Of a DNA stretch of 60,357 nt, positions 1,514 through 31,040 are shown piece by piece. The stretch is from Bacillota bacterium (lineage in GTDB: Bacteria > Bacillota_I > Bacilli_A > Erysipelotrichales > Erysipelotrichaceae). Location: positions 1 to 60,357 of the forward strand of contig JAHFCO010000009.1 of assembly GCA_023249475.1 (NCBI GenBank), in the 5' to 3' direction. The first letter of the stretch is position 1. Each line of letters opens with the position of its first letter. Under the pieces are notes generated by a model, which saw only the letters and a list, made by a program, of their open reading frames with translations, did not search any database and was not told the DNA's origin. The position numbers and the translations under genes are program-made.

Positions 1514-2344
1514 TTACTTACAGATTCTTTGTCCAAGCGAATTCCTGGTCCATTTCGCAAAACCGACGATGGTCGCGACCGGGGCATGTTTCCCGATCAT
1601 CCGCACCGCACTTAAATTCTTTTCGGATCCCACGAAGAGATCCAACAACGATCCGGAGACGCCGCGGTCGACAACCATCACTTTGAACGGTTTGCCCGGG
1701 GTAAGTCCCATTCCGGAATAGGTATGATTTGAGATTTCCAGGATCGTGCACATCGGCAGACTGGGGCTCGAAGCGACAAGATAATAGCCATTGAATGTGA
1801 TTCCGTCTTTCCACGTTCCGTCACGTTGACGGACGGCGGTCGTGGACACGCGTATGCCGGAAGCTGTTCCGGCCGTACCATCCGCATAAGGCTGGCATCC
1901 ACCGCAGTCGGCCCCGTATCGGGAGAAGCCTGCATTGAAATACGCGCCTTTGGCGACTTTGGCACCATACATCCAGATCGTTGGAACCGCTTCTTTCGTT
2001 ACGGTCGATCCGGGCACGGCGATTTTCGACAAGACGTTCCCTAACCCGTCATAGGTGATCCGGTAGGTCGACGACTGTGTCTTGGGTGAACCTTCACTGA
2101 TCTTGGATATCAACCAAGGGATTCCGGTTCTTGAGGCTGTGGCTGGTTTGACCACGGAAACTTGTTTTGCGAGTACTGTGCTTTCCACGACTTCTTCCAT
2201 GATGAACCCATCTTCGGAAGTGAGCGTAACATCCTCGCTCGAGAGGGTCTGCAAGACGACTTTTTTGTCTTCTTCGATGCCCCAGCTGCACGCGGAAAGT
2301 GAAATGACCAAGAAAACTAAGATGATCTTTTTGAGTTTGATCAA
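1514..2344 (-). CDS. YabE-like lipoprotein with G5-like and 3D (double-psi barrel) domains
   Basis: The protein has 276 residues if it starts at the TTG at 2342-2344, 8 nt after AAAGGAGA; the GTG at 2360-2362 overlaps that Shine-Dalgarno and is less likely. The N-terminus is a lipoprotein signal (KLKK, then a hydrophobic core ending LSAC). The middle (about 90-130, STYRITYDGLGNVLSKI and onward) resembles a degenerate G5 domain. The C-terminal half carries the 3D-domain hallmarks: YGADCGGC, then ASGIRV, then VVDRGVSGSLLDLFVG with its conserved aspartates. Bacillus YabE (cell-wall-binding, RpfB/MltA-like) occupies the same locus between tatD and rnmV, so this is its positional counterpart. It probably acts outside the membrane on envelope glycan. 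Unlike my recollection of Bacillus YabE, it is lipid-anchored. The enzymatic activity is inferred. Confidence 0.75.
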   Translation of the reverse strand: MIKLKKIILVFLVISLSACSWGIEEDKKVVLQTLSSEDVTLTSEDGFIMEEVVESTVLAKQVSVVKPATASRTGIPWLISKISEGSPKTQSSTYRITYDGLGNVLSKIAVPGSTVTKEAVPTIWMYGAKVAKGAYFNAGFSRYGADCGGCQPYADGTAGTASGIRVSTTAVRQRDGTWKDGITFNGYYLVASSPSLPMCTILEISNHTYSGMGLTPGKPFKVMVVDRGVSGSLLDLFVGSEKNLSAVRMIGKHAPVATIVGFAKWTRNSLGQRICK

Positions 2345-2371
2345 GAGATAGTCTCCTTTCACATCGGGTTA

Positions 2372-2400
2372 ACTGTAGCACACTTCCTAAAATCTGGCAA
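2372..2400 (-). promoter_or_regulatory. Sigma-A-type promoter of the YabE-like gene
   Basis: On the minus strand: -35 TTGCCA, 17-bp spacer, -10 TACAGT, located 28 bp upstream of the chosen TTG start. Confidence 0.65.
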
Positions 2401-2440
2401 ATTTTCGACTGTTTTCGTTGTCAGATTAGGGCACTAAGCA

Positions 2441-2467
2441 CAATGAAACGGCTTACTTTAGCCGTTT
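2441..2467 (-). terminator. Terminator after tatD
   Basis: On the minus strand the perfect 8-bp stem AAACGGCT/AGCCGTTT (2460-2467 with 2446-2453) has a 6-nt loop. The tatD stop codon lies in its ascending arm and loop. The following T-tract is short (TTTCATT), so termination may be incomplete. Confidence 0.55.
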
Positions 2468-3240
2468 TTCGAATGAAAGAGTCTTTGATAAGTGACACTC
2501 ATGACGCTCTGCAAGGTTGCCACATCGATTTCCCTGAGTCGGCAAATCTCTTCGCCGACGTGGATGACGTACGAACTTTCGTTACGTTTCCCCCGAAAGG
2601 GCATGGGTGTCAGATACGGACTGTCCGTCTCGATCAAGAGGGATTCCAAGGGGATTTGTTTAGCCACTTCCTTGGGGACGACCGCGTTCTTAAAGGTCAC
2701 CGGACCGGCCAGTGAGATGACATACCCCAACTTGATGAACTCGCGCGCCATCTCGACGCTGCCTGAATAGCAGTGCATGATGCCGGCACGGGCACAGGGG
2801 TGGTTTTTCAGGATTTCGAAGGTTTCCTGGGTCGCATCCCGGGTATGGATCAGGATCGGCAGGTCCAGTTGGTTGGCGATGTCGATCTGTTTGAGAAACG
2901 CGACGCGTTGAAGCTCCCGGTGTTCCGGTGCTTCATGCCAGTAATGGTCCAGTCCGATCTCACCGATGGCGACGATCTTGGGATGTCGCCATAGCTTCAG
3001 CATTTCTTCCCAGGATTCGTCGTTCATTTCTTCGATTTCCTGCGGATGAAATCCGACCGCCACATCGAACAGGTCGTCGCTCTCCGCCAAGGCGATGGCT
3101 TGTTTCGAATTCGCGACCCCGCATCCGATCAAAAGGATCTTACTCAACCCCGCCGCTTTCGCGCGTGCGATCGTTTCATCGCGGTCCAGATCGTAATCCT
3201 CGGACGTCAGATGGGCGTGGCTATCGATCCAGCCTACCAT
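2458..3240 (-). CDS. tatD: TatD-family metal-dependent hydrolase/DNase
   Basis: The 260-residue protein has the full TatD metal-ligand set: DSHAHL near the N-terminus, the glutamate in IGEIGLDH (about 95), IHTRDA, MHCYSG and ETDSPYLTP. Family members are cytoplasmic Mg-dependent 3'-5' exonucleases or phosphoesterases of the TIM-barrel amidohydrolase superfamily. The start overlaps the RDD gene stop by 7 bp, which indicates translational coupling. In Bacillus, tatD (yabD) precedes yabE-rnmV-ksgA, and the same order is kept here. The substrate cannot be read from sequence. Confidence 0.93.
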   Translation of the reverse strand: MVGWIDSHAHLTSEDYDLDRDETIARAKAAGLSKILLIGCGVANSKQAIALAESDDLFDVAVGFHPQEIEEMNDESWEEMLKLWRHPKIVAIGEIGLDHYWHEAPEHRELQRVAFLKQIDIANQLDLPILIHTRDATQETFEILKNHPCARAGIMHCYSGSVEMAREFIKLGYVISLAGPVTFKNAVVPKEVAKQIPLESLLIETDSPYLTPMPFRGKRNESSYVIHVGEEICRLREIDVATLQSVMSVTYQRLFHSKNG

Positions 3241-3680
3241 ATGCGGGTTTTCGCGGCGATGTCATGGAAGGAGGAATGATTGTCGGCGATGAGGGTGTAG
3301 ACGATCGACAAGATGCCCAAAAGGAATAAAGGGGATTTCGACGCGCCGAAGATCAGTTCTTTGACGGTGGAACGAAGCAGGCAGGTCCAGCCATCCAAGG
3401 TGCCGTCGATCGCACGGACTTCCAGGTTCATCAGTTTCTTTCCGATCGTGGTTTTCATCGAGTAAAGCGAGAGGGTTTCATAGAGGATGTAGAGGATCGA
3501 CACGGATCCTGTGAACGCCCAGAAGGGGTTGCTGATCATCCAGTTCCAAGGAAGGAACCAGAAGAGTACTCGGAATAATACGGAAAAGACAAAGAGCAAG
3601 ATGCCGAGGACGAAGGTCGGGATCGCGATGATGATGTGGTCGATGATGTTGGCGAGAATGCGACGAATGACGAGTTCCAT
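3234..3680 (-). CDS. RDD-family integral membrane protein
   Basis: The 148-residue protein has two strong hydrophobic segments near the N-terminus (about 10-38 and 44-70), a charged middle (TTIGKKLMNLEVRAIDG) and a third hydrophobic segment near 115-130. The RRILANIID start and the GKKLMNLEV segment are typical of the RDD family, whose conserved Arg/Asp residues sit in or near the first helices. Function is unknown in most bacteria; sodium/proton antiport has been reported for one member. It sits between mnmE (8-bp gap) and tatD (7-bp overlap), so it is part of that operon. Confidence 0.75.
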   Translation of the reverse strand: MELVIRRILANIIDHIIIAIPTFVLGILLFVFSVLFRVLFWFLPWNWMISNPFWAFTGSVSILYILYETLSLYSMKTTIGKKLMNLEVRAIDGTLDGWTCLLRSTVKELIFGASKSPLFLLGILSIVYTLIADNHSSFHDIAAKTRIW

Positions 3681-3688
3681 GGGGTTAC

Positions 3689-5020
3689 CTACTTTCCGAG
3701 ACAGAAACGGCTGAACAGTTCGTTCAGCAGGAAATCCTTGTCGACGGGATGAAGGATTTCGCTTAATCGTAAGAAGGATTCTTGAAGGTCGACCGCGATG
3801 AGGTCCAGTTGGACCCCTTCATCGAGTCCCTTCAGTGCGGATTCCATCGCATCGAGCGCCTGTGACGCCAATCCGATCGTCCGCTCATTCACCAAAGCCC
3901 CCGTTTTCAGGACGACCTGGTGATCGGCGAACCGCCGGTTGATCGCTTGGATCAAACTGTCGATCTCGCCTTTCAACGCACTGACTTCGATGTCTTGTTG
4001 AGATGTGTTCAAGTCCGATTTATTGTAGACGACCAAGCGTTTCGCCGGATCGACCAGTTTGAGTAACGTTTCATCTTCTTCATCCGGTTCGCTCGATGCA
4101 TCCAAAACCAGAAGGATCAGTTCGGCTTCTTCGAGCGCTTTCTTGGATTTCTCGATCCCGATCTTCTCGATGAAGTCGCCGGTCTCCCTGATTCCTGCCG
4201 TATCGATCAAGTGCAAGGTGACATTCTCAAGCCGGATCGTCCCTTCGACCAAATCCCGGGTCGTTCCGGGGATTTCCGTCACGATCGCCTTGTCTTCCTC
4301 AAGCAACGCATTCAGCAGGCTCGACTTCCCGACATTGGGTTTCCCCACGATGACGGTCTTGACGCCTTCTTTCATCTGTTTTCCGGAGGACGCATCTTTC
4401 AAGATGCGTTCAAGTCTGATTTTCCATTCCTGGCATAAGGGTTGGATGAGTTGGCGGGTCATCTGTTCGACATCGTCGTATTCGGGATAATCGATGTTGA
4501 CTTCGATGTTGGCGATGATGGACAAGAGGTCGTCCATCAAGGGTTCGATCAACCGTTTCAAGGATCCTTTGATCCCTTGGACGGCCATGGCCGCGCTTTG
4601 CGAGCTGTCGGCTTCGATCATGTCCTGGATGGCTTCCGCCTGGGTCAGGTCGATCCTTCCGTTCAGCATCGCCCGTTGGGTGAATTCACCGGGTCGGGCT
4701 AAGCGCGCTCCTGAACTTAAGATGGCGGCCAAGATCCGTTTCGTGATGTAGACGCCGCCATGGCAGTGGATTTCCGCCACGTCTTCCTTGGTATACGACC
4801 GAGGTGCCTTCATGACGAAAACCAAGGTTTCATCCAGGACTTCGTGGGTTTGCGGATCGTGGATAAAGCCATAGTTGACGGTATGGGATGGAATCGTCGT
4901 GAAATCCCGTCCCGTGAGACGGGAAAGGATCTCGACTGCCCGATCCCCGCTGATGCGGATGACGGAGATCGCCTGTTCGCTTAGTGCGGTGGAAATCGCG
5001 GCGATGGTATCGCTGAACAT
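3689..5020 (-). CDS. mnmE: tRNA uridine-5-carboxymethylaminomethyl modification GTPase MnmE
   Basis: The 443-residue protein has the N-terminal tetrahydrofolate-binding domain (AISVIRISGDRA), a helical domain, an inserted G domain with P-loop GKPNVGKSSLLN (about 219-230), GTTRD, DTAGI and NKSD, and the C-terminal FCLGK with the essential cysteine. MnmE works with MnmG to install the (carboxymethyl)aminomethyl group on the wobble uridine of certain tRNAs. GGAGGTGA precedes the ATG. In most Bacillota mnmE is adjacent to mnmG or rnpA/yidC; here it lies directly downstream of parB, far from mnmG (10.6 kb). Only a weak terminator separates it from parB, so read-through is likely. Confidence 0.96.
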   Translation of the reverse strand: MFSDTIAAISTALSEQAISVIRISGDRAVEILSRLTGRDFTTIPSHTVNYGFIHDPQTHEVLDETLVFVMKAPRSYTKEDVAEIHCHGGVYITKRILAAILSSGARLARPGEFTQRAMLNGRIDLTQAEAIQDMIEADSSQSAAMAVQGIKGSLKRLIEPLMDDLLSIIANIEVNIDYPEYDDVEQMTRQLIQPLCQEWKIRLERILKDASSGKQMKEGVKTVIVGKPNVGKSSLLNALLEEDKAIVTEIPGTTRDLVEGTIRLENVTLHLIDTAGIRETGDFIEKIGIEKSKKALEEAELILLVLDASSEPDEEDETLLKLVDPAKRLVVYNKSDLNTSQQDIEVSALKGEIDSLIQAINRRFADHQVVLKTGALVNERTIGLASQALDAMESALKGLDEGVQLDLIAVDLQESFLRLSEILHPVDKDFLLNELFSRFCLGK

Positions 5021-5037
5021 TCATTCACCTCCGATGC

Positions 5038-5061
5038 AAGAAGACACGGTTTCCCCGTGTC
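5038..5061 (-). terminator. Weak terminator after parB
   Basis: On the minus strand the stem GACACGG/CCGTGTC (5055-5061 with 5043-5049) has a 5-nt loop and is followed by TTCTT. It starts inside the parB stop codon. The short T-tract and lack of room for another mnmE promoter suggest partial read-through. Confidence 0.55.
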
Positions 5062-5929
5062 AGTTTTCTTCTTCCAAGCATCCCAAAGCTTCCAGGATGC
5101 GGTTTAAATCCTCATCATCGCTAAACGCGATGACGATCTTTCCATCATCGACCTTCACCTTGCTTTGAAGCTTGGTTTGAAGCAGATCGGTCACATAACG
5201 GTAGTCCTTCTTTATTTTTTCGACTTCGGGTTTTTTAGGTTGGTTTCTTTCTTTGATGAGTTGTTCGACGGCACGGACCGAAAGATTCTCTTTGACGATT
5301 CTCTTCGCGATTTCTTCGATCTCCGCATCTTCTTCCAACGTGATCAACGGGCGGACATGGCCCATGGTCAACTTTTTGTCACGGACCATTTCTTGAACGC
5401 TCTGCGGAAGCTTGCGAAGACGCAGGATGTTGGTGACATGTTCCCGGCTCTTCCCGACCTTCTGGGCGAGTTGTTCCTGGGTCAAGCCCATGCGATCGAT
5501 CAACAATCCATAGGCGTCGGCTTCCTCGATGATGTTGAGGTCTTCGCGCTGAATGTTTTCGATCAACGAGATCTCCATCATTTCTTCTTCGCTGAAATCC
5601 ATGATGATGGCGGGGATGGTGGCGAGTTTCGCGATGCGTGCCGCACGGACACGACGTTCACCGGCGATCAATTGGTAACCGGAGACCGCCTTACGCAACA
5701 AAACCGGAGTGAACACCCCGTGTTGTGCGATGGATTGGGCAAGTTCGTCGATTTTCTCAGGGTCGAAATGCAGCCGCGGTTGATAGGGGTTGGGATGGAT
5801 GATCGAGAGGTCGATTTCTTCCTTGGGGAATGATTTATCGTTCCCTTTCTGGATTTCTTCCAACATCGACGTGACATCTTCACCGAAGATCGCACCGAGA
5901 CCCTTCCCTAAACGACTTCGATCACTCAT
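5060..5929 (-). CDS. parB: Chromosome-partitioning protein ParB (Spo0J type, CTP-dependent clamp)
   Basis: The 289-residue protein starts with a ParA-interacting peptide (RLGKGLGAIFG). The N domain follows with NPYQPRLHF and GERRVRAAR (CTP-binding motifs), then the helix-turn-helix (VGKSREHVTNILRLRKL, then LTMGH) and a C-terminal dimerisation segment. ParB loads at parS, spreads as a CTP clamp and recruits SMC. At the four positions that separate parS- from Noc-type binding (Caulobacter R173/T179/A184/G201) it has R, I, K and G. Arg and Gly are the ParB type, but Ile and Lys are not canonical. The start overlaps parA by 4 bp (ATGA). Confidence 0.93.
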   Translation of the reverse strand: MSDRSRLGKGLGAIFGEDVTSMLEEIQKGNDKSFPKEEIDLSIIHPNPYQPRLHFDPEKIDELAQSIAQHGVFTPVLLRKAVSGYQLIAGERRVRAARIAKLATIPAIIMDFSEEEMMEISLIENIQREDLNIIEEADAYGLLIDRMGLTQEQLAQKVGKSREHVTNILRLRKLPQSVQEMVRDKKLTMGHVRPLITLEEDAEIEEIAKRIVKENLSVRAVEQLIKERNQPKKPEVEKIKKDYRYVTDLLQTKLQSKVKVDDGKIVIAFSDDEDLNRILEALGCLEEEN

Positions 5930-6708
5930 GATTGTACCTCCCCTTCGTTTTGGGCGATGACTTCTTTCGCAAGCGCGGCATAAGCCCGCGCCCCTTCGGA
6001 TCGTACATCGTATTCGAAGATCGATTGTCCGCGCGAAGGCGCTTCGGACAAGCGTGTATTACGAGGAATGAAGCTCTTATAGACCCGCTCTTTGAAGTAC
6101 TTACGCACTTCCTGCTGGACCTCGACGCTCAGCCGTGTCCTGGTATCGAACATCGTCAGCAAGACGCCTTCGATGAAGAGTTTATCGTTGAACAGCTTCT
6201 GGACCAAACGGATCGTCGACAACAACTGGGTCAAGCCTTCAAGCGCGTAGTATTCGCATTGGACGGGGATGATGACCGAATCCGCGGCCGTCAATGCGTT
6301 GGTGTTCAGTAAGCCCAGCGACGGAGGGCAATCGATGATGATGAAATCGTAGTTCGGCTTCACGATGTCCAGTTTATTCTTGAGTAATCTTTCTCTTCCG
6401 ATTTTGAATTCGACCATCTCCAGATCGGCTCCCGCCAGATCGATGGTCGCCGGAACCAAGGTGAGGGGCGGCATCTTGATGGCGACACTCGCCTGATTGA
6501 CACTGATATCGCTTAACAGTACGTCATACGCACTGTGTTTGATGTTTTGACGGGAAGCGCCGACCCCTTGGGTCGCATTCCCCTGCGGGTCGAAATCCAC
6601 AAGCAAAACCTTCCGCCCTAAATAGGCGAGACCGGCAGCCAGGTTGATGCTGGTGGTCGTCTTTCCGACTCCTCCTTTTTGATTGGCTACGGCGATGATT
6701 TTACCCAT
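5926..6708 (-). CDS. parA: Chromosome-partitioning ATPase ParA/Soj
   Basis: The 260-residue protein starts MGKIIAVANQKGGVGKTTT, the deviant Walker A (KGGVGKTT) of ParA/MinD ATPases. It also has switch I/Walker A' (DFDPQGNAT), Walker B (IIDCPPSLG) and VPVQCEYYALEG-type motifs (here IIPVQCEYYALEG). Soj-type ParA is the partner of ParB in origin segregation and also regulates DnaA. The frame extends 6 codons upstream, but the ATG at 6706-6708 begins the canonical family sequence and is preceded by AAAGGAAG. It lies between noc and parB in the Bacillus-like order noc-soj-spo0J. Confidence 0.95.
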   Translation of the reverse strand: MGKIIAVANQKGGVGKTTTSINLAAGLAYLGRKVLLVDFDPQGNATQGVGASRQNIKHSAYDVLLSDISVNQASVAIKMPPLTLVPATIDLAGADLEMVEFKIGRERLLKNKLDIVKPNYDFIIIDCPPSLGLLNTNALTAADSVIIPVQCEYYALEGLTQLLSTIRLVQKLFNDKLFIEGVLLTMFDTRTRLSVEVQQEVRKYFKERVYKSFIPRNTRLSEAPSRGQSIFEYDVRSEGARAYAALAKEVIAQNEGEVQS

Positions 6709-6726
6709 GAACCCACTTCCTTTCAT

Positions 6727-7494
6727 CTATTTTGGGAAACGTAATGTAATCCGGACTTCCTTCTCGTCTTCTTCGACTTTCTTATGGACGTCGACCCCGG
6801 TCTTCAGGATCATCCCGACCGCCGCCTCGATCGTATTCAGTGCGATCTTCAGGTTGCGTGTGATGCCCTTGGTTCTCGGTTTCTTCATCTCTTCTTCGTG
6901 TTTTTTGACTTTACCGTTGATCCATTGTTCGGTCTGGCGAACATTCAAGTTCATCCCGACGATCTTCTTGAACATATCGTGACGCTCTTCCGGGACGACG
7001 TTCAACAATGCACGCGCGTGGCGTTCGGTGATGACCCTTTCGCTCACGGCTTGCTGGATGTCCTCGGGGAGTTGAAGCAAACGGATCTTATTCGCGATCG
7101 CCGATTGGGACTTCCCGACCTTGCTTGCGATCTTCTCTTGGGTCAATTGACTCTCGGCCATGATTTTAACGTAGGCTTTCGCTTCTTCGATCGCGGTCAA
7201 ATCCTCGCGTTGAAGGTTCTCGACCAACGCCATTTCCGCCATCTGCGTCTCGTCCGCTTCGCTGATCAAACAGGGAACCGTGATGAATCCCGCCATCTGC
7301 ATGGCGCGATACCTTCTCTCCCCGGCGATGATTTCATACTGCAGCCCGGATTTACGTACGGTGATCGGTTGGATCAAGCCGTTCTCACGGATGGATTGGG
7401 CAAGCTCCATCAACGATTCCCGATTGAAATCCAATCGCGGTTGATAGCGGTTGGGTTTAATCAGTTCCACAGGGATATCAAAGGTCTCTCTCAT
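6727..7494 (-). CDS. noc: Nucleoid-occlusion protein Noc-like (ParB paralogue)
   Basis: The 255-residue second ParB-type protein has NRYQPRLDF, GERRYRAMQ, and the helix-turn-helix VGKSQSAIANKIRLLQL followed by ITERH. At the four specificity positions it carries Q, K, Q and R. Bacillus Noc has Q, K, K, R and ParB has R, T, A, G, so this is the Noc class by sequence as well as by position (rsmG-noc-parA-parB). Noc binds NBS sites and blocks septation over the nucleoid. The protein starts only a few residues before the N domain (MRETFDIPVELIKPN). It therefore lacks the ~10-residue amphipathic helix that tethers Bacillus Noc to the membrane. AGGAGGAAGC before the ATG supports this start. Confidence 0.88.
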   Translation of the reverse strand: MRETFDIPVELIKPNRYQPRLDFNRESLMELAQSIRENGLIQPITVRKSGLQYEIIAGERRYRAMQMAGFITVPCLISEADETQMAEMALVENLQREDLTAIEEAKAYVKIMAESQLTQEKIASKVGKSQSAIANKIRLLQLPEDIQQAVSERVITERHARALLNVVPEERHDMFKKIVGMNLNVRQTEQWINGKVKKHEEEMKKPRTKGITRNLKIALNTIEAAVGMILKTGVDVHKKVEEDEKEVRITLRFPK

Positions 7495-7502
7495 GCTTCC
7501 TC

Positions 7503-8198
7503 CTACAAAGGTTTCTTCTTGATTTGGGCGAAATTCCGGGGATATCCCTTGGGTGTTTCACCGGTCTTCCTCAATACTATATTATAACGCAGGCCTGCGC
7601 TCGGCAGTACTTCCTTTTGGATTTCTTTTCTCTCCAGCCTCAACACTTCCATCGCATGGACGCTTTCCTGCAGTTCATCCATCCCCGAACTCCCCTTCAT
7701 CGCAATGACGATCCCGTCGGCTTTCACCAAGGGCGCACACAATTCAAGCAAGATCGGCAAGGCCGCGACAGCGCGTGCCGTCGCCGCGTCGTATCTTAGT
7801 TTACGGTTCACGAAATCCTCGGCGCGTTCATTGACGACGATAGCGTTCTTCAATCCGAGTTGTTTGACGACTTCGTTGAGGAAGGTGGTTCTCTTCCCGA
7901 TCGGTTCGACCATCGTCACCTTCAAGTCAGGCAGGGCGATCGCCAAGGGGATCGCCGGGAACCCGGCTCCCGATCCGACATCGACCAGACTCTTCGATTC
8001 CTGAAGTAGAGGAACCAGACAGAGACAATCCAGGAAATGCTTCTCACGCACTTCCTCGATCGCCGTGATGGCGGTCAGGTTCATGCGTTGATTCCATTCC
8101 GAAAGAAGTTCATGATAGCGATCCAGCATCGCGAATTGCGACGCGGTGAAAGGAATCTTACGTTGACCGAGGGCTTCGGCGAGTTCTGATTGATTCAT
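7503..8198 (-). CDS. rsmG: 16S rRNA (guanine527-N7)-methyltransferase
   Basis: The 231-residue protein is close to the usual 235-240. It has the RsmG/GidB features: NQRMNLTAI at about 36, KHFLDCL, SAM motif LVDVGSGAGFPAIPLAI (about 68-84), and TARAVA. It methylates G527 of 16S rRNA, and loss causes low-level streptomycin resistance in other bacteria. GGAGGAACGAC precedes the ATG. It heads the rsmG-noc-parA-parB operon (8-bp gap to noc). In related genomes mnmG lies directly upstream; here a 2.4-kb insert of plus-strand genes plus a thioredoxin gene intervenes. Confidence 0.95.
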   Translation of the reverse strand: MNQSELAEALGQRKIPFTASQFAMLDRYHELLSEWNQRMNLTAITAIEEVREKHFLDCLCLVPLLQESKSLVDVGSGAGFPAIPLAIALPDLKVTMVEPIGKRTTFLNEVVKQLGLKNAIVVNERAEDFVNRKLRYDAATARAVAALPILLELCAPLVKADGIVIAMKGSSGMDELQESVHAMEVLRLERKEIQKEVLPSAGLRYNIVLRKTGETPKGYPRNFAQIKKKPL

Positions 8199-8217
8199 GT
8201 CGTTCCTCCGTGTTGCT

Positions 8218-8246
8218 ATTTTATCATAGATGCCCCCCTAGCGTAA
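8218..8246 (-). promoter_or_regulatory. Promoter of rsmG-noc-parA-parB
   Basis: On the minus strand: -35 TTACGC, 17-bp spacer, -10 TAAAAT, 20 bp upstream of the rsmG start. The -35 lies inside the inverted repeat at 8230-8276. Confidence 0.5.
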
Positions 8247-8276
8247 GGGTGTATGCGTATTATCTTACGTGGGCAT
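8230..8276. repeat. Interrupted inverted repeat over the rsmG promoter
   Basis: Two nested arms pair: ATGCCC (8230-8235) with GGGCAT (8271-8276), and CGTAAG (8242-8247) with CTTACG (8264-8269), leaving an asymmetric 6/1 internal loop and a 16-nt apical loop. No T-tract follows, so it is not an intrinsic terminator. It covers the -35 of the rsmG promoter and could be a protein-binding site. Confidence 0.45.
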
Positions 8277-8352
8277 CGAACTGTACGTTTCTGTGGATTT
8301 GAACTTAAATCGATCTTCCCCAAGGTTTCAAGGGTCATCCCTCATTTTATCC

Positions 8353-8380
8353 TTGAACGCTTTTTGAATTGGGATACAAT
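8353..8380 (+). promoter_or_regulatory. Promoter of the tandem lipoprotein genes
   Basis: -35 TTGAAC, 16-bp spacer, -10 TACAAT, ending 22 bp before the ATG at 8403, which has GGGAGGAA upstream. Confidence 0.6.
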
Positions 8381-8402
8381 AAACTTATTGGGAGGAATTT
8401 CT

Positions 8403-9005
8403 ATGCGAAAATTCATCATTGTCTTCATCGTTGCTTTTATTCTGGTCTTGTCCGGCTGTCAATCTCAGAATGATCTTACCGAAATCACGAATCAGATCAA
8501 CGAAAACAAGGCGACCCTTCAGGCAAACACAAACAAAATGATTCAACTCGATGCTTTGCTGAAGGAAATGAAAGAAAAGGTCGACAGTTATATCCCTACG
8601 TTTCTAGAACGGGGTTCGGCGTTTTGCTGCGACACCGGGATCGAATATTATGATGAGGCGAAAGACCTGATGATCCTCACCCCGGCGTTAACCAACATCC
8701 GCATCGAATTCAAAGGGAAACTGCCGGTTCAGATCACGATGAACGAACAGAGAGGGTTGGTCCATTTCTATTTCAACGGGGAATTGGGAAGCGATGGAAA
8801 CATAACGAAAGAATTCATTCTCGGCTACGAAGCGGTAAGCAAACTTGCGCTTGAACGCGCCGGGATCAAAGATATCGTGCTTGACCTTGGAAACGGGATG
8901 GCTTTGGTGAGGGTGAATGGGGAACCTTCCAAACTGACCGGATCTTCGCTTAAAATCAGGGAAGACTTCGAGAAGCTGGTTTTCACCGTTACGCTCGGTA
9001 AGTAA
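8403..9005 (+). CDS. Lipoprotein of unknown function (tandem paralogue 1)
   Basis: The 200-residue protein starts MRKFIIVFIVAF with a lipobox LSGC at about residues 16-19, so the mature protein is predicted to be lipid-anchored outside the membrane. The open frame extends 50 codons upstream, but the ATG at 8403 has GGGAGGAA and gives the signal peptide. Residues about 24-60 are polar and helical (TNQINENKATLQANTNK), possibly coiled coil. The globular part has EYYDEAKDLMILTP and IEFKGKLP, repeated in the next gene (SYYDSARDVTIVTP and IEVEGQLP). I recognise no family. It is transcribed against the surrounding housekeeping genes. Confidence 0.8.
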   Translation: MRKFIIVFIVAFILVLSGCQSQNDLTEITNQINENKATLQANTNKMIQLDALLKEMKEKVDSYIPTFLERGSAFCCDTGIEYYDEAKDLMILTPALTNIRIEFKGKLPVQITMNEQRGLVHFYFNGELGSDGNITKEFILGYEAVSKLALERAGIKDIVLDLGNGMALVRVNGEPSKLTGSSLKIREDFEKLVFTVTLGK

Positions 9006-9007
9006 CC

Positions 9008-9574
9008 ATGAAGAACACGTCCATCGCAGTCGTCGTCCTTCTTCTACTCGTTTTCGGCGGTTGTACGCAAAAAGAGTCGGAAGAACTTACGAAATTGAAA
9101 TCCACGTTGGAGTCCCAACAATTTTCAATCGCCATTCAGGAAACGTCGATCAATGAAATGACGAGCGAAATCACCGAACTGGCGAATTTAACCGAGGTTT
9201 ATTTGGTTGATCATAGTGCATCCATTCTCGGTGAGAATTTTTCCTTATCTTATTATGACAGTGCGCGCGATGTCACGATCGTCACCCCGACCAAAATCAA
9301 TGTCCAGATCGAAGTCGAAGGACAATTACCGGAATATGTCTTCGTTTCGGAAACGGATACGAGTATCGATTTCTTCTTCCATGATGCCTCGAAGATCGAA
9401 TTCATCACGGGGTATGCGGTCTATTCTAAAGAAGCCACCAGCGGGGTTGATCTTGGAAGTGGATATATCCTTGCGAGTACGCGGATCATCTGGACGGATC
9501 TCAATGAAGACCAAATGAAGTTACGCGATGAGTTCGCGGGTCGTAAATTCACCATTATTGTGAATCATGATTAG
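9008..9574 (+). CDS. Lipoprotein of unknown function (tandem paralogue 2)
   Basis: The 188-residue protein has a signal peptide with lipobox FGGC (about 16-19), a polar helical stretch (SEELTKLKSTLESQQ) and the same globular core as its upstream neighbour (SYYDSARDVTIVTP, IEVEGQLP, a hydrophobic FITGYAVYSK segment against FILGYEAVSK). It starts 2 bp after the stop of paralogue 1 with only a poor Shine-Dalgarno, so it is probably translationally coupled. The pair is a diverged tandem duplication. Function unknown; the role is presumably at the outer face of the membrane. Confidence 0.8.
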   Translation: MKNTSIAVVVLLLLVFGGCTQKESEELTKLKSTLESQQFSIAIQETSINEMTSEITELANLTEVYLVDHSASILGENFSLSYYDSARDVTIVTPTKINVQIEVEGQLPEYVFVSETDTSIDFFFHDASKIEFITGYAVYSKEATSGVDLGSGYILASTRIIWTDLNEDQMKLRDEFAGRKFTIIVNHD

Positions 9575-9614
9575 TACGAATTTCATGTAAGTTAATCAAC
9601 CAAAGGAGAAACCT

Positions 9615-10103
9615 ATGTCGAAAACCGCTTTATTGATCGTGGATATGCAGAAGAATTGTAAAACCAATGCATCGTCGACCGATTCATTTCTCTCCGCCGT
9701 CGCCTACATCAATGAAGTAAGCAAGATCTTCCGATCGAAGAGCTTACCGGTCGTGATCATTCAAGATTTAGAAGACGCCGGACCGGGGGAAGAAGGATTC
9801 GATTGTGTCGACGAGTTGATCGTGGAAGAATCAGACTTCCATATCCACAAACGATTCAGTAATTCTTTCTGGCAAACCGAACTGGATACCTTGCTTCGAT
9901 CACAGGATGTGGATAGTGTAGTGGTGAGTGGATTCGCCGCAGAGTATTGTGTTCTCTTTACCTACAACGGTGCGGTCGAGCGGGGCTATTCCACCTTCTT
10001 GCTTCAACATGGAATCGCCGGGGTTCATGAAGAAGAGATCGAACGAATCCAACAGCTTCGACCGGTGGTTTCATACAACGCACTCGGATACTTCCTTAAG
10101 TAA
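9615..10103 (+). CDS. Isochorismatase-family cysteine hydrolase
   Basis: The 162-residue protein has the Asp-Lys-Cys triad of the family: D10 in LLIVDMQK, the lysine in IHKRFSNSFW (about 77), and the cysteine in AAEYCVLF (about 117), plus the cis-peptide region VVSGFAAE just before it. Members are cytoplasmic amidases such as nicotinamidase, pyrazinamidase and N-carbamoyl hydrolases. The substrate cannot be assigned here; nicotinamidases usually carry a Zn-binding DxHxxH motif, which I do not see. CAAAGGAG precedes the ATG. It lies 40 bp after the lipoprotein pair and may be co-transcribed. Confidence 0.88.
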   Translation: MSKTALLIVDMQKNCKTNASSTDSFLSAVAYINEVSKIFRSKSLPVVIIQDLEDAGPGEEGFDCVDELIVEESDFHIHKRFSNSFWQTELDTLLRSQDVDSVVVSGFAAEYCVLFTYNGAVERGYSTFLLQHGIAGVHEEEIERIQQLRPVVSYNALGYFLK

Positions 10104-10111
10104 TCGAAAAG

Positions 10112-10142
10112 AAAAGAAATCCCGTGGTTCGGGATTTCTTTT
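10112..10142. terminator. Bidirectional terminator between the cysteine hydrolase and thioredoxin genes
   Basis: A 13-bp perfect stem AAAAGAAATCCCG (10112-10124) pairs with 10130-10142 around a 5-nt loop, with A/T-rich ends on both sides. It serves the two convergent genes. Confidence 0.85.
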
Positions 10143-10467
10143 ACGATAGGAGATCAAGGATCCGTTGGATCTTGTTGAAATCGATGAAGCGGCTTTCACG
10201 CAGCACTTCTTTTCCTTCGTGGAACACAAGGATGGTCGGTACGGTGAACACATTGTTTTGGGCGGCGATGTCGGGATGCATCGATCCATCGATCTTTAGA
10301 AGAGGAAAAGCATAGTTCGAACTGAGTTCCGTCAATTTCGGAAACACCGCCTTACAGACATTGCATGTCGGTGTGGTGAAATAAAGGATCGCCGTGGGTT
10401 GGGCGTTGATGTTGTCCGCAAAATCCTGAGGGCTTTTTATCGATTTAAGTCGTGTTGTTTCAATCAT
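10141..10467 (-). CDS. Thioredoxin-like protein
   Basis: The 108-residue single-domain thioredoxin fold carries the redox motif CNVC in TTPTCNVCK (about 35-42) and the cis-proline in FTVPTILVF. Thioredoxins reduce protein disulfides in the cytoplasm. The active-site dipeptide Asn-Val differs from the Gly-Pro of classical TrxA and is closer to YtpP-like proteins. The frame runs 4 codons upstream to a TTG, but that TTG overlaps the TTGGAG Shine-Dalgarno, so the ATG at 10465-10467 is preferred. The whole upstream region consists of two promoter-terminator modules, the nearer one ending 9 bp before the start codon. Confidence 0.85.
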   Translation of the reverse strand: MIETTRLKSIKSPQDFADNINAQPTAILYFTTPTCNVCKAVFPKLTELSSNYAFPLLKIDGSMHPDIAAQNNVFTVPTILVFHEGKEVLRESRFIDFNKIQRILDLLS

Positions 10468-10475
10468 ACGTTTCT

Positions 10476-10545
10476 CCAAGGAAAAAGAGGCACCGCGGCC
10501 TCTTTATCATGATTCAAGTATGCCATCGAACCTTTAATTCTTCAA
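10476..10545 (-). repeat. Promoter-terminator module, copy 1 (adjacent to the thioredoxin gene)
   Basis: On the minus strand: -35 TTGAAG (10540-10545), 17-bp spacer, -10 CATACT (10517-10522), then about 6 nt to an ATG (10508-10510). An 8-bp stem AAAGAGGC/GCCTCTTT (10498-10505 with 10484-10491) follows, with a 6-nt loop and TTTTT. The segment 10476-10520 is repeated with one mismatch at 10577-10621. The predicted product is an RNA of about 30 nt, unless the terminator is suppressed to express the thioredoxin gene immediately downstream. Confidence 0.6.
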
Positions 10546-10576
10546 CTGATTTGCCCAAGAAGTTTTCTTGATTCGA

Positions 10577-10646
10577 CCAAGGAAAAAGAGGCACCGCGGC
10601 CTCTTTATCATGATTGAAGTATACGATAGATGCTTTGATGTTTCAA
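10577..10646 (-). repeat. Promoter-terminator module, copy 2 (adjacent to mnmG)
   Basis: On the minus strand: -35 TTGAAA (10641-10646, overlapping the mnmG stop), 17-bp spacer, -10 TATACT (10618-10623), ATG at 10609-10611, then the same hairpin (10599-10606 with 10585-10592) and T-tract as copy 1. It is offset from copy 1 by 101 bp. The hairpin also serves as the mnmG terminator. Confidence 0.6.
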
Positions 10647-12514
10647 GTATTATGACCGCCCTTTTGTTTCTGTCCGATCACCATCGCCAGTACGGCGATA
10701 TCGGCCGGATTGACACCGGAAATCCGGCTCGCTTGGCCAACGGTTAATGGTCGGATCGCCGTCAGTTTCTGTCGGCCTTCCAGGGAAAGGTGGTCCATCG
10801 CATGATAATCCAGCTCTTCCGGGAGTTTCAGATCTTCCATCGCTTTTAAACGTTCTGCTTCTTTTTTCGCTTTGACGATGTATCCTTGATACTTCACTTC
10901 GATCTCCACATGGTTGAGAACTTCCTCGTCGACCATCGAAAGATCCATAAGCGGTTTTAAATCATCGAGTTTTATGTTGGGACGTTTGAGTAGGTCTTCC
11001 GCCAACATCCCTTCGATCGAGGGTTCATACCCGTGATTCGCTAGAATCGCGTTGAGTGTTTCACTTCGCGGGAACCGCGTCGTTTTTAAGCGTTCGACCA
11101 ATTCGTTGCGTTGTCTTGTGGCTTCTTCGTATAAGCCGTATCTTTCATCATCCAATAGCCCGATGTCCCTTCCGATCTGGGAGAGCCGTTGTTCGGCATT
11201 GTCATGGCGAAGCAAGAGTCGGTATTCCGCACGGCTTGTTAAGAGTCGGTAGGGTTCTTTGGTGCCTTTGGTGACCAGATCATCGATCATGACCCCGATG
11301 TAGGCTTCATCCCGCTTCAAGATGACCGGGTCTTTCCCCTGGATCCATCGTGCCGCGTTGATGCCTGCCATCAATCCTTGTCCGGCGGCTTCTTCATAGC
11401 CCGAAGTGCCGTTGATTTGCCCTGCGCAATAGAAACCTTCCATATCCTTCACTTTGAGGTCGGCCGTTAATTGTAGCGGGTCGATCGCATCGTATTCGAT
11501 CGCATAGGCGTACTTGTCGATGACACACTGTTCCATTCCCGGTAAACTCCTCAACATCTCGTCTTGGACGTCATGCGGGAGCGAGGTGGAGAACCCTTGG
11601 ATGTAGGTGGTGTCGAGCTCGAGGGATTCCGGTTCAAGGAAGATCTGATGACGTTCCTTATCGGAGAAACGGACGAGTTTGTCTTCGATCGACGGACAAT
11701 ACCGTGGACCGACCCCTTCCACCAAGCCGGAATACATCGCGCTGCGTTTGATGTTGAGCTTGATGATCCGGTGGGTTTCGGGTTGGGTATAGATCAAGTA
11801 ACAGGGGACCTGTTCTTTAATGACGTTTTCTTTCTTGGTTAGAGAGGAAAAATGGATGAATTCTTCATCCCCGGGTTGAATCAACCCTTTCGAGAAATCG
11901 ATCGAGTTTGTTTTGATTCGAGCCGGTGTCCCGGTCTTCAATCTAAACGTACGCAATCCGGCATCACGGAGGGATTGCGATAGATTCTTCGTCGTCTTCT
12001 GATTCTCCGGTCCGCTTTCCGTCGCCGTATTCCCGACCAGGATCTTTGCGGACATATAGGTCCCCGACGTCAGAACCAATGCTTTGCAGGGTAGGATTTC
12101 CTGGTTCCCCAAGCGAAGTCCGACCACTTTCTTCTCTTCGAAAAGGATCTCTTCCGCCATCGCTTCGACCACGGTCAGATTCTCGGTATGATTGACGATT
12201 CGTCCCATCTCGCGGGAGTAGGCGATTTTATCGGACTGGACACGTAAACATTGGACACCCGGTCCCTTGTTTGTGTTCAGCATCTTGAATTGTAATGCCG
12301 TCGCATCGGCGACGATCCCCATCTGTCCACCCAACGCATCGATCTCACGAACGACGATCCCTTTCGCGGGACCCCCGACGGAAGGATTGCAGGGCATGAT
12401 GGCGATCCTGTCTTTATTCATTGTTACAAGGGCGGTCTTTACACCCATACGGGCACACGCCAGCGCGGCTTCGACACCCGCATGACCCGCACCGACGACC
12501 AATACATCAAACAT
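10643..12514 (-). CDS. mnmG: tRNA uridine-5-carboxymethylaminomethyl modification enzyme MnmG
   Basis: The 623-residue protein has the FAD-binding start MFDVLVVGAGHAGVEAA, NPSVGGPAKG, the CAGQINGTSGYEEAAGQG motif and the C-terminal helical motif RISGVNPADIAVL. MnmG uses FAD, NADH and folate, with MnmE, to modify wobble uridine 34. The ATG at 12512-12514 follows AAAGGAGGG; the frame's 7-codon upstream extension lacks support. An extended -10 (TGTTAAAAT) lies at 12538-12546 on this strand. The usual neighbours mnmE and rsmG are not adjacent. Confidence 0.96.
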   Translation of the reverse strand: MFDVLVVGAGHAGVEAALACARMGVKTALVTMNKDRIAIMPCNPSVGGPAKGIVVREIDALGGQMGIVADATALQFKMLNTNKGPGVQCLRVQSDKIAYSREMGRIVNHTENLTVVEAMAEEILFEEKKVVGLRLGNQEILPCKALVLTSGTYMSAKILVGNTATESGPENQKTTKNLSQSLRDAGLRTFRLKTGTPARIKTNSIDFSKGLIQPGDEEFIHFSSLTKKENVIKEQVPCYLIYTQPETHRIIKLNIKRSAMYSGLVEGVGPRYCPSIEDKLVRFSDKERHQIFLEPESLELDTTYIQGFSTSLPHDVQDEMLRSLPGMEQCVIDKYAYAIEYDAIDPLQLTADLKVKDMEGFYCAGQINGTSGYEEAAGQGLMAGINAARWIQGKDPVILKRDEAYIGVMIDDLVTKGTKEPYRLLTSRAEYRLLLRHDNAEQRLSQIGRDIGLLDDERYGLYEEATRQRNELVERLKTTRFPRSETLNAILANHGYEPSIEGMLAEDLLKRPNIKLDDLKPLMDLSMVDEEVLNHVEIEVKYQGYIVKAKKEAERLKAMEDLKLPEELDYHAMDHLSLEGRQKLTAIRPLTVGQASRISGVNPADIAVLAMVIGQKQKGGHNT

Positions 12515-27647: not shown

Positions 27648-28931
27648 TCAAGGTCGGGCGGGATCGAGAACACGTTGAACATCAAAGAAATGCTCGTTGA
27701 GGTAAGCCGCGTCCTTGGTCATACTGACCCCGTCGATGTCGACGCGGGCGAAGAACGTCATCCCGTCGATCACTGAAACATCCCCTCGGCGATCGACGAT
27801 GAAATAGGCGCTGTACCCGTAATCCTTAACGACCTGGAGGCTGTCTCCGGTGAGTTTGTATCCGAAGGGTGCCACGAACAAGGTCGTGTCCCCGGCGATC
27901 GAACCGATTTTCGCGGTCCATTTCGCAAAATCCTCATCGATTTTCTCCGGTATGGAAGAGGACGAGTAATACGCTCCGTCCGCATGGCTGTAACTGTGGT
28001 TGGCGAAAATCCAGCCCTTTGACTTAAGCGCTTCGACGACCTGGGTCGCCGCTTCGATCTCGTCGTTGTTTGTAAGGCGGAATCCAAGCGTCCCCGCATG
28101 TCCGCTCAACGCGAGGATACCGCGTGCGCTCTTGTAGGAGAAATCGGGATGGGCTTCGAGGAAAATCTCCAGAATGGGGACGATGTCCCCGTCTTTCGTG
28201 AGAATCTCTCCGTCTTTCGTTTCGACACGGGTGTAAATCTCGCCGTTCTTGAGGGTCAACCCCCGGGCGAATCCATCCGCCGGTTTTGGATCCGGATAGG
28301 ACATATCATCGATCGAAAAGATGAACGGGATCTTTCCTTCGGGAAGTTTCAACGGTTTACGGATGTATTTGCCATCTTTGTATTCATAGACGTCGTAGAA
28401 ATCCACGACGACGAACCCTCTGGCATACATCTCCTCTAGGATTCGTTTGAACTCGTAGACGGTGATGTTCCAACTGTTATAGCCCGCCGCGTTGTGGCTG
28501 CCTTCCCCGAACGCAATCGAAGGGTCGATGATCAGATTGTGGAAAAAGAGATGACGAACCGGGGAATCGTAATTTACCAAAGAATCGATCGCGTTTTGAA
28601 AATATGCGATCCGATCTTTGATTCTGGGATCATCCTGTATCTTTGGTTCCTGCCTCAATATCGCCAAAGCTTCTTCATAGGCATACCCCTCGCCCATGGC
28701 GTTCGCTTCGATGATCGTCTTTTCGATCAATGCATCGTCCTTGTGCGAATTCAAATACTCTTCAAGTTGGTTCTGCATTTCGACGATTTTATCGTTGATC
28801 TCCTGTAGGATTTTTTGATCTTGACTATATTTCAAGGTCATCAGCGCGAACACGAGGAAAAGGATGAGTGCCGGAATCAAGAACACCCTTCCCCAACGAA
28901 TGCGACGTCTCTTGCGATGTACCGTTTTCAT
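27648..28931 (-). CDS. Membrane-anchored polysaccharide deacetylase (NodB-like), active-site-intact copy
   Basis: The 427-residue protein has a basic N-terminus (HRKRRRIRWGR), one membrane helix (about 16-34), a coiled-coil-like stretch (about 35-65) and an extracellular NodB-like domain (about 200-420). NodB motifs: SIDD with D208/D209, HSYSH with H312/H316, and FVAPFGY. It should therefore be a metal-dependent glycan de-N-acetylase outside the cell. The frame extends 43 codons upstream, but the ATG at 28929-28931 follows GAAGGAG. The neighbour upstream is a full-length paralogue that has lost these ligands. No peptidoglycan synthesis genes are in the window, so the substrate is open. Confidence 0.85.
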   Translation of the reverse strand: MKTVHRKRRRIRWGRVFLIPALILFLVFALMTLKYSQDQKILQEINDKIVEMQNQLEEYLNSHKDDALIEKTIIEANAMGEGYAYEEALAILRQEPKIQDDPRIKDRIAYFQNAIDSLVNYDSPVRHLFFHNLIIDPSIAFGEGSHNAAGYNSWNITVYEFKRILEEMYARGFVVVDFYDVYEYKDGKYIRKPLKLPEGKIPFIFSIDDMSYPDPKPADGFARGLTLKNGEIYTRVETKDGEILTKDGDIVPILEIFLEAHPDFSYKSARGILALSGHAGTLGFRLTNNDEIEAATQVVEALKSKGWIFANHSYSHADGAYYSSSSIPEKIDEDFAKWTAKIGSIAGDTTLFVAPFGYKLTGDSLQVVKDYGYSAYFIVDRRGDVSVIDGMTFFARVDIDGVSMTKDAAYLNEHFFDVQRVLDPARP

Positions 28932-28991
28932 AAAGTACTCCTTCGAACCTATTATAATCACATTCTCCATAAAATCATCTTGATCCGCGAT

Positions 28992-29012
28992 AAAAAAGAC
29001 CGTTTCCGGTCT
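28992..29012 (-). terminator. Terminator after the NodB-like pseudoenzyme gene
   Basis: On the minus strand the stem AGACCG/CGGTCT (29007-29012 with 28997-29002) has a GAAA tetraloop and a T-run of six. It means the two paralogues are separately terminated. Confidence 0.85.
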
Positions 29013-29028
29013 GTAGATGCTCATCGAT

Positions 29029-30306
29029 TTAGCGTAGAGGATCCAAGATGCTATCCACATCGAAGAACGTTTCGGTAATGTACTCTTTTTCGTTGGCCAT
29101 GGTGATTCCGCTGATACTGATGCGCGAGAGAACCAACATCCCCGTGTTTTCCGTCAAATCCTTCGTACGATCGAGTGTGAAGAAGGTTGTATATCCGTAT
29201 TTCTTCAAGACGTTCATCGTCTCCGGATTCATCATGTTTCCAAAAGGCGAAACGAATAAAGGAGAATCCCCGACGATCGGCTTGATGATTTTATCCCATT
29301 TCGCTAAATCCGCGTCGATCTTCGTCGCGTCGATCGAGGTAGAATAGATGTCCAATTGATTCCCGTAACTGCTACACCCGAACACCCAACCTCTTTTCTT
29401 CAACTCGGCGGCAAGCACTTTCGCATCTTCGATTTCACCGTCGTTGGTCAACCTGAACCCAAGCGTCCCCGCATACCCCGTCACCGCAAGAATCCCCCTT
29501 GCGCCGCGATAGGAGAAATCGGGATGTTGTTTGATGAAATCCTCCATGATCGGAACGATGTCCCCGTCGGTGGTGATCTCGATACCTTCGGCGGTTTGGA
29601 CACGCGTCACGATTTCACCGTTGCGAAGCGTCATCCCGCGAGCGAATCCATCTAAGGGTTTGGGGTCCGGATAGGACATCTCATCCACGGACAAGATGAA
29701 CGGGATCTTCCCCGCCGGTAATTTCAATTCTTTGCGGACCATCTTTCCGTCCACGATTTCATATGCATCATACATATCGACCAGGATATAGTTCCGTTCG
29801 TATAATTGCTGGATGATTCCCTTGAATTCATAGGTCGTGATGTTCCAACTGCGGTATTCTTCCGGATCGTGACTGGTTTTCCCGAACGCGATCTTGGGTT
29901 GCGTAATCAAATTGTGAAAGAAGAGATTGTTGATTTTTCCCGAATAGGTGACCAAGGCATCCATGGCTGCTTGATAAGTGGCAATTTTCTCTTTGATCGA
30001 TGCATTATCCTGGATCGACTCGTTCTGTTTCAGCACCGCCAACGCCTCGTCGTATTCATACCGCAATGCCAACCCGTCGGCGCTCGCGATGACCGTTTGA
30101 ACCAACTCTTGATTCTGATGTCCGTTAAGGTATTCCTGCAACTCTTCCTGCAACTGTTTCACTCGATCCTCGATCGATTTCAGGTTCTTTTGATCATTGA
30201 TATAGATGACCGCCATAAAGGCGACGGCGACCGCCACCACCAGTATCGGCAATAGTACGACCCTACCCCATCGGATACCGGGTCTTCTGTGACGTGTAGT
30301 TTTCAT
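29029..30306 (-). CDS. NodB-like membrane protein, metal-site-degenerate paralogue
   Basis: The 425-residue protein aligns without gaps with the downstream gene over the first 320 residues: basic start, membrane helix (about 16-34), coiled coil, NodB-like domain. The first catalytic Asp is kept (SVDE, D208), but the second is Glu209. The two zinc histidines 312 and 316 are Ser and Asn (SSYGN in place of HSYSH). FVSPFGN replaces FVAPFGY. It is therefore probably catalytically dead and may bind glycan or partner the active copy. Both H131 (FHNLI) and H146 are shared by the pair. The ATG at 30304-30306 follows GGAGGATAC; the longer frame crosses the divergent promoter. Confidence 0.83.
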   Translation of the reverse strand: MKTTRHRRPGIRWGRVVLLPILVVAVAVAFMAVIYINDQKNLKSIEDRVKQLQEELQEYLNGHQNQELVQTVIASADGLALRYEYDEALAVLKQNESIQDNASIKEKIATYQAAMDALVTYSGKINNLFFHNLITQPKIAFGKTSHDPEEYRSWNITTYEFKGIIQQLYERNYILVDMYDAYEIVDGKMVRKELKLPAGKIPFILSVDEMSYPDPKPLDGFARGMTLRNGEIVTRVQTAEGIEITTDGDIVPIMEDFIKQHPDFSYRGARGILAVTGYAGTLGFRLTNDGEIEDAKVLAAELKKRGWVFGCSSYGNQLDIYSTSIDATKIDADLAKWDKIIKPIVGDSPLFVSPFGNMMNPETMNVLKKYGYTTFFTLDRTKDLTENTGMLVLSRISISGITMANEKEYITETFFDVDSILDPLR

Positions 30307-30376: not shown

Positions 30377-30919
30377 ATGAATTTAAAAGAAACCAAACGT
30401 TCGTCGAAGCCTTTGATTCAAGGGAAAATCGTGAATCTGAGACACGACCAGGTGACCTTGCCCGATGGGCGCGAAGCCCTGCGCGAGATCGTGGAACATC
30501 CCGGCGGCGTCTGCATCGCCGCCCGTCTTGACGATGGGAGATTCCTGGTGGTCGAACAATACCGCTACGCCCATTCGCGTGTCTTCACCGAATATCCGGC
30601 GGGGAAAAGAGAGCCCGGGGAAGATCCGCTTTCCTGTGCGATGCGGGAATTGGAAGAAGAAACAGGTTATCGGGCGAAAGTCATGATCCCGATGGGTGAG
30701 TTCATCCCTTCGCCAGCCTATCTCGAAGAAGTCATCTATCTCTACTTCGCCCCCGAACTTGAATTCGTCGGTCAACGTCTGGATGACGGGGAATTCCTGA
30801 ACGTGAAGAAGGTCGAACTCGCCACCTTGGTCCAAGCCACGATGGACGGGGATTTGATGGATGGCAAGACCATCGCCTTGACCTTGAAACTAAGCCATTA
30901 TCTACAAAATCAACAATGA
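30377..30919 (+). CDS. nudF: ADP-ribose pyrophosphatase (Nudix)
   Basis: The 180-residue protein has a complete Nudix box (about 78-100: GKREPGE, then REL-EEETGY, fitting GX5EX7REUXEEXGU). The preceding EQYRYA and the downstream GEFIPSPAY and proline-rich loop are typical of ADP-ribose pyrophosphatase. It hydrolyses ADP-ribose to AMP and ribose 5-phosphate. The ATG at 30377 follows TGAGGAGGA; a TTG start 6 codons earlier overlaps it. Monocistronic, with its own terminator, on the lagging strand. Confidence 0.92.
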   Translation: MNLKETKRSSKPLIQGKIVNLRHDQVTLPDGREALREIVEHPGGVCIAARLDDGRFLVVEQYRYAHSRVFTEYPAGKREPGEDPLSCAMRELEEETGYRAKVMIPMGEFIPSPAYLEEVIYLYFAPELEFVGQRLDDGEFLNVKKVELATLVQATMDGDLMDGKTIALTLKLSHYLQNQQ

Positions 30920-30941
30920 GGGAATCTTCCCTCTTTTTTTT
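30918..30941 (+). terminator. Terminator of nudF
   Basis: Stem GAGGGAA/TTCCCTC (30918-30924 with 30927-30933), then seven T. The stem begins inside the stop codon and the loop is only 2 nt, so the closing pair is probably open. Confidence 0.8.
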
Positions 30942-31009
30942 AATCGTGTTTACGATTGAATGGTCGATGGGTTGTTTTAAGAAACAAAGACAAAAAGAAG
31001 CGTACATGT

Positions 31010-31040
31010 AAAAAGCACCGGGGGTTTCCCTCGGTGCTTC
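31010..31040 (-). terminator. Terminator of gpmI
   Basis: On the minus strand AGCACCG/CGGTGCT plus GGG/CCC (31014-31038) with a one-base bulge, followed by TTTT. The 70 bp between this and the nudF terminator holds nothing I recognise. Confidence 0.75.

Follow-up and report, generated by a model that had tools for sequence, protein, structure and literature searches.

Why would a bacterium keep, next to the gene for an apparently intact membrane-anchored polysaccharide deacetylase, a second copy without the residues that hold the catalytic metal? The question is raised by two tandem genes in a window of 60,357 nucleotides (GC content ~52%) from an Erysipelotrichaceae assembly (GCA_023249475.1, contig JAHFCO010000009.1). 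We call the upstream gene, whose product lacks the metal ligands, D, and the downstream gene A. The pair is flanked by a divergent NUDIX gene and by tmk, both named by reading the sequence. An initial annotation described tandem NodB-like paralogues and held the metal-null copy to be selected rather than decaying.

Results

Gene D encodes a NodB2-type protein without metal ligands

Both open reading frames are intact, and their positions and active-site residues are as first annotated (Table 1). A and D are 51% identical across 427 alignment columns; the claim of a gap-free alignment over the first 320 residues is nearly right, the first gap falling at column 317. Both proteins start with basic residues, followed by a membrane helix that runs on without interruption into a stalk, and both have a NodB domain predicted with confidence. 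The N-terminal hydrophobic segment begins at residue 16 (mean hydropathy 2.5 in A and 3.2 in D). Neither A nor D has a cysteine among its first 60 residues, so both lack the lipobox of the BA0330/BA0331 group. Scored against Pfam Polysacc_deac_1, A reached 31.7 bits, above the cut-off of 23.1, and D reached 19.1 bits, below it.

Table 1. Features of the D–A locus (window coordinates)
Feature	Position	Strand	Basis
Gene D, membrane-anchored NodB2-type protein, metal ligands absent	29029..30306	minus	425 aa, intact ORF
D transmembrane helix, ~residues 13-35	30202..30270	minus	hydropathy and model; helix continues to 80 as stalk
D His131, kept (MT5-like motif; = PplD acid/base His)	29914..29916	minus	alignment; motif-order mapping
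D Asp208-Glu209: Asp208 kept, ligand Asp replaced by Glu	29680..29685	minus	alignment
D 312-316 SSYGN: metal-ligand His pair gone	29359..29373	minus	alignment
D Arg395 (= A Arg396), kept, putative Asp208 partner	29122..29124	minus	invariant column R396
Terminator-like hairpin 3' of D	28997..29012	minus	terminator scan and folding
Gene A, membrane-anchored NodB2-type putative deacetylase, metal ligands intact	27648..28931	minus	427 aa, intact ORF
A transmembrane helix, ~residues 13-35	28827..28895	minus	hydropathy and model; helix continues to 80 as stalk
A His131	28539..28541	minus	alignment
A Asp208-Asp209	28305..28310	minus	alignment
A 312-316 HSYSH, metal-ligand His pair	27984..27998	minus	alignment
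Tract diverged between species: D codon 90 to D end, spacer, A start; A-side edge gradual	28830..30036	minus	sliding identity, breakpoint, GC3

Structure prediction of both proteins, which the annotation had proposed, gave a confident NodB domain in each [AlphaFold2; pLDDT 93.3 (A) and 91.9 (D), pTM 0.84 each]. Each model begins with a single helix at residues 13–80 that spans the membrane and forms the stalk, then has two more helices and a catalytic-type domain from residue ~119; only helices precede residue 119, and an Fn3-like domain before NodB is absent from both. The solved structures closest to D by VIA-align were 6go1, 4hd5, 4v33, 4u10, 6dq3, 4wcj, 3vus, 4f9d and 4f9j (Z 17.2–17.9, rmsd 3.0–4.0 over 211–225 residues), followed by BpsB (Z 14.8) and the remaining structures (Z ≤9.8). 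Foldseek ranked the same structures at the top for A. In the NodB2 class of CE4, as defined in the literature, the His motif MT5 precedes MT1 and MT3 lacks its first proline (PMC10967932). In both A and D, FFH at 129–131 precedes D208, and the modelled fold is that of the NodB2 class (PgaB/IcaB/PplD/BA0330).

The ligand signature of this class (MT1 Asp-Asp with MT2 H(S/T)xxH) is present in A and absent from D. In the streptococcal enzyme PplD, H105 reportedly acts as acid/base, D168-H223-H227 bind zinc and D167 pairs with R302 (PMC8807736). Our own mapping, made by motif order, equates H105 with H131 of A, D167 with D208, D168-H223-H227 with D209-H312-H316, and R302 with R396. H131, D208 and R396 were invariant in a 51-row alignment that includes the D copies of the window genome (G000) and of a sister species (G001, Erysipelotrichaceae MAG UBA12416). 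What D lost is thus the metal ligands; the other named catalytic residues remain in it. The D copy of G001 is likewise without ligands: it keeps Asp-Glu at 208–209 and has T312 and D316, compared with S312 and N316 in the window. No new histidine is common to the two D copies in their alignment. The two A copies and all ten single copies of the family agree at 90 columns. Both D copies retain 57 of these, 16 are lost in only one D copy and 17 in both, from which we conclude that D drifted beyond the metal site.

The pair arose by duplication before the split of two species

Searching 272 genomes of the GTDB family with A gave matches in 15; three of these were short and weak, leaving 12 genomes in four genera. 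When the query was a 14-row alignment, 14 genomes out of 315 in the order matched, two of them weakly and partially. Two copies occurred only in the window genome and G001, which are both of the sampled genomes of the genus, and the other ten genomes had one copy. A survey of relatives for a co-conserved pair, another proposal of the annotation, thus found D and A in both sampled species, in the order D then A and at the same position between the NUDIX gene and tmk. In G008, which belongs to another genus, a single copy lies between these two genes. All ten single copies of the family (L010, L012–L020) have Asn at ligand position 209 and keep both histidines (HSYTH), which makes the intact Asp-Asp of A the exception within its own family.

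We built a tree from 41 ectodomains, chosen by hand out of 102 aligned rows, with the active-site columns masked. The A copies grouped together (support 100/100), as did all four sequences (100/100); support for the D copies as sisters was good, though not full (96/88). This topology places the duplication before the species split and, as sampled, within this lineage. The D branches measured 0.27 and 0.70, compared with 0.09 and 0.06 for A.

A scan across bacterial genomes confirmed at least 424 relatives; the best 80 of them, mostly from Bacillota, were retained. The HxxxH histidine pair was kept in 87 of the 88 ORFs matching the family profile in these best 80 loci of 424, and the sole loss was the D copy of G001. 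Outside the genus, seven of the 80 loci had two copies, with HxxxH in 14 of 14 ORFs; no inactive pair was found outside the genus among the best 80 of at least 424 relatives, a survey depth at which distant degenerate copies may be missed. Tandem pairs with intact motifs in both copies were seen in Blautia and other Lachnospiraceae-type genomes (L078, L087, L091, L092, L093, L096 and L099). One family member, on a long branch (1.72), lies on a contig labelled Candidatus Nomurabacteria (L080), which may reflect either a wrongly labelled bin or a transfer. Pfam annotation of ten neighbouring proteins at six loci chosen from the 80 (glycerol kinase-type, aquaporin-type, MerR, metallo-hydrolase, DinB-like, sialate esterase, dehydrogenase, AdoHcyase, aminotransferase and AAA) gave no shared functional context.

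D is under purifying selection and has a mosaic structure

All between-species figures compare two genomes only, the window genome and G001. For six neighbour genes dS was 0.24–0.43. The D stalk (residues 1–75) had a dS of 0.20, a dN of 0.006 and 99% identity, and the DNA encoding anchor and stalk was ~96% identical. The D ectodomain was saturated at synonymous sites (pS 0.84), with a pN of 0.30 and 55% identity (DNA ~58%). The corresponding values for A were a dS of 0.60 and a dN of 0.07 in the ectodomain and 67% identity in the stalk (residues 1–75). Codon models returned omega values of 0.083 and 0.078 for the A/D ectodomain tree and of 0.043 and 0.027 when A was added to the D copies as a third row (two output values each); these are only a guide, because NG86 dS was infinite for the D ectodomain and the codon-model branches were over-long. 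D is under purifying selection. The annotation had named a frameshift or rapid decay in sister strains as one observation that would speak against a selected copy; the frame of D is open in G001, and open frames together with the pN and pS of the ectodomain are not as expected under decay. The claim of a selected metal-null paralogue, present with its partner in both species, is therefore upheld. With residues needed for catalysis lost and the predicted fold and purifying selection retained, D has the properties of a putative pseudoenzyme.

It had been overlooked that D changes abruptly from a conserved stalk to a diverged ectodomain. In an 18-kb block that is otherwise roughly 93% identical (80–99% per 150 bases, one spacer apart), identity fell to 46–67% from ~29999 to 28810. 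The breakpoint lies near D codon 90, where within ~10 codons identity drops from 87–100% to 50–60% per 10 codons. GC3 of the D ectodomain was 0.46 in G001 compared with 0.64 in the window and 0.59–0.69 in five G001 neighbours. The simplest reading of the low GC3 is that the tract was imported in the G001 lineage by recombination, its source being a relative of lower GC in which the pair was likewise present. In G001 (L009, 8747–9094) the D–A spacer is unrelated to that of the window, and over its first 90 codons A is highly diverged and low in GC3 (0.51), as if A start and spacer had been carried along with an imported D ectodomain. Elsewhere in the 18 kb, only the spacer that separates the NUDIX gene from gpmI (window 30900–31027) is strongly diverged (53%).

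We do not claim that gene conversion has recently acted on A and D within the window genome: the A copies differ at 86 sites of codons 201–350, and at these the window D agreed with the window A at 35 and with the G001 A at 22 (p 0.11).

A terminator had been assigned to each gene. That of D fits the terminator-like hairpin 3' of the gene, and in G001 the spacer, for all its unrelated sequence, also contains a strong hairpin followed by a T-rich stretch (z −2.58). For A the assignment did not hold, as the scan found no minus-strand terminator after the gene and folding of the A–tmk spacer did not exceed that of shuffled sequences (z 0.65). By eye, a TATAAT box and a GGAG-type ribosome site can be read 5' of both genes; they are absent from the promoter-scan list.

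The genome encodes cell-wall functions

The annotation had raised the possibility of a wall-less lineage. The genome contains three transpeptidase and six Mur-ligase matches and two LCP ligases, and its sister genome belongs to Erysipelotrichaceae; judged by gene content, the organism is Erysipelotrichaceae-like with wall genes, not wall-less. Its one PF00953 gene (contig C38) adjoins transpeptidase and Mur-ligase matches and is thus probably MraY. A second PF00953 gene, a family to which GacO and TagO presumably belong, was not found in the 96% complete genome. A third CE4 protein is of ordinary type (TFDDG and HSYSH).

The one phosphoglycosyltransferase of the genome lies within a polysaccharide locus on contig C21 (L118, C21:34000-53900). 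At 1636–10702 of this locus, a gene run has 35–41% GC compared with ~52% in the window and was probably acquired. Of the 19.9 kb searched, nine pieces at 67–91% identity, separated by large gaps, matched G001; because the locus is only partly shared, surface glycans probably differ between the species.

Discussion

We favour, at about even confidence, a reading in which D is a non-catalytic protein that binds wall glycan as a tether or adaptor and was kept after loss of its ligands, while A is a wall-glycan deacetylase. A duplication within the lineage, before the split of the two sampled species, would have given rise to D, which would then have lost its metal ligands while keeping the fold and H131, D208 and R396. 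Held on the membrane by its conserved helix and stalk, D would most likely bind peptidoglycan or a wall polysaccharide and remove no acetyl groups. A, as a membrane-anchored NodB2-type protein with a putative activity, would probably strip N-acetyl groups from wall glycan.

The mosaic break lends itself to another account, possible but rather unlikely, in which D would be a variable module of the cell surface. Its anchor and stalk would stay fixed, whereas its NodB ectodomain, dead as a catalyst, would act as a glycan-reading lectin and be swapped between lineages by recombination as the wall polysaccharide changes. Drivers of such exchange could be the tracking of a strain-specific wall polysaccharide or escape from phages or host recognition. 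The sharp break at codon 90 inside an otherwise ~93% identical block, the saturated synonymous divergence of the ectodomain against the neighbour dS, its low GC3 in G001 and the differing polysaccharide locus are all consistent with such exchange; this is, however, one comparison of two species, and a single import gives the same picture without repeated exchange. D could instead be a regulatory subunit, joined to A by the stalk helices and controlling the activity or location of A. The genes are adjacent, anchor and stalk have the same architecture and helix 13–80 is present in both models. However, the D stalk stayed fixed while that of A changed, which makes the coiled-coil heterodimer entertained in the annotation less likely; moreover, a terminator-like hairpin separates the genes in both species, within unrelated spacers, and BA0330 and BA0331 reportedly ran as monomers in gel filtration (PMC4505593). 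We consider this role unlikely.

It is distinctly improbable that D is still an enzyme, using other ligands (E209 with N/D316) or metal-free catalysis by H131-D208. The retained H131, D208 and R396 and the E209 common to both D copies would fit such an activity, but both histidines are gone in both species, their replacements differ (S/T312, N/D316), no new shared histidine compensates, and the family otherwise keeps HxxxH in the ORFs surveyed. A decaying duplicate might be suspected from the Pfam score under the cut-off and the longer D branches. Both species, however, keep the frame open even though synonymous sites are saturated, pN is only 0.30, omega lies far below 1 and the stalk is nearly unchanged, so that decay is very unlikely.

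For the favoured reading, a glycan-binding D beside a deacetylase A, the closest comparison is with BA0330/BA0331 (BC0361) of Bacillus anthracis and B. cereus (4v33, 6go1, 4hd5), which are likewise membrane-anchored adjacent NodB2 paralogues and among the best structural matches of D. Their genes are adjacent on one strand by published coordinates (PMC6115787). The proteins are 55% identical and reportedly showed no deacetylase activity on common substrates, bound peptidoglycan and were proposed to stabilise the wall (PMC4505593). They are lipoproteins with Fn3 and keep Asp-His-His in both copies, whereas A and D are anchored by a transmembrane helix with a helical stalk and lack Fn3, and D is without ligands. 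The analogy is thus inexact, and we use it as a working comparison, not as membership.

PplD of Streptococcus pyogenes (6dq3) resembles A in its N-terminal transmembrane helix, linker and NodB2 domain. It is, however, a single active enzyme acting on the GlcNAc that links polysaccharide to peptidoglycan in a GacO-initiated pathway; the one PF00953 gene of the present genome is the probable MraY. The poly-N-acetylglucosamine deacetylases PgaB and IcaB (4f9d, 3vus, 4wcj) share fold and motif order with A and D; poly-N-acetylglucosamine was rejected as a substrate here, as the PgaC/IcaA synthase model stayed below cut-off in the genome. The CE4 pseudoenzymes BA0150 (4m1b), BA3943 (7bkf) and Encephalitozoon cuniculi CDA (2VYO) are, like D, NodB folds minus catalytic or metal residues (PMC10967932). 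The structures 4m1b and 7bkf were weaker matches of D (Z 7.7–7.9, VIA-align), and the passages covered give no sign of tandem pairing with an intact membrane copy. Nor did the titles and abstracts surveyed on CE4 pseudoenzymes and BA0330/BA0331 contain a tandem pair of intact and metal-less NodB proteins.

Judged from the best 80 loci of 424, the NodB2-type family is widespread in Bacillota, with the His ligands otherwise kept. Inactive deacetylase relatives were already known; here an intact and a metal-less copy stand side by side. The order of events can be read, from duplication in one lineage through loss of the metal ligands to retention under selection, with single-copy genera as reference. 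The pair thereby offers a clean natural test of the role of the NodB fold without its metal, and of whether wall binding alone accounts for proteins like BA0330 and BA0331.
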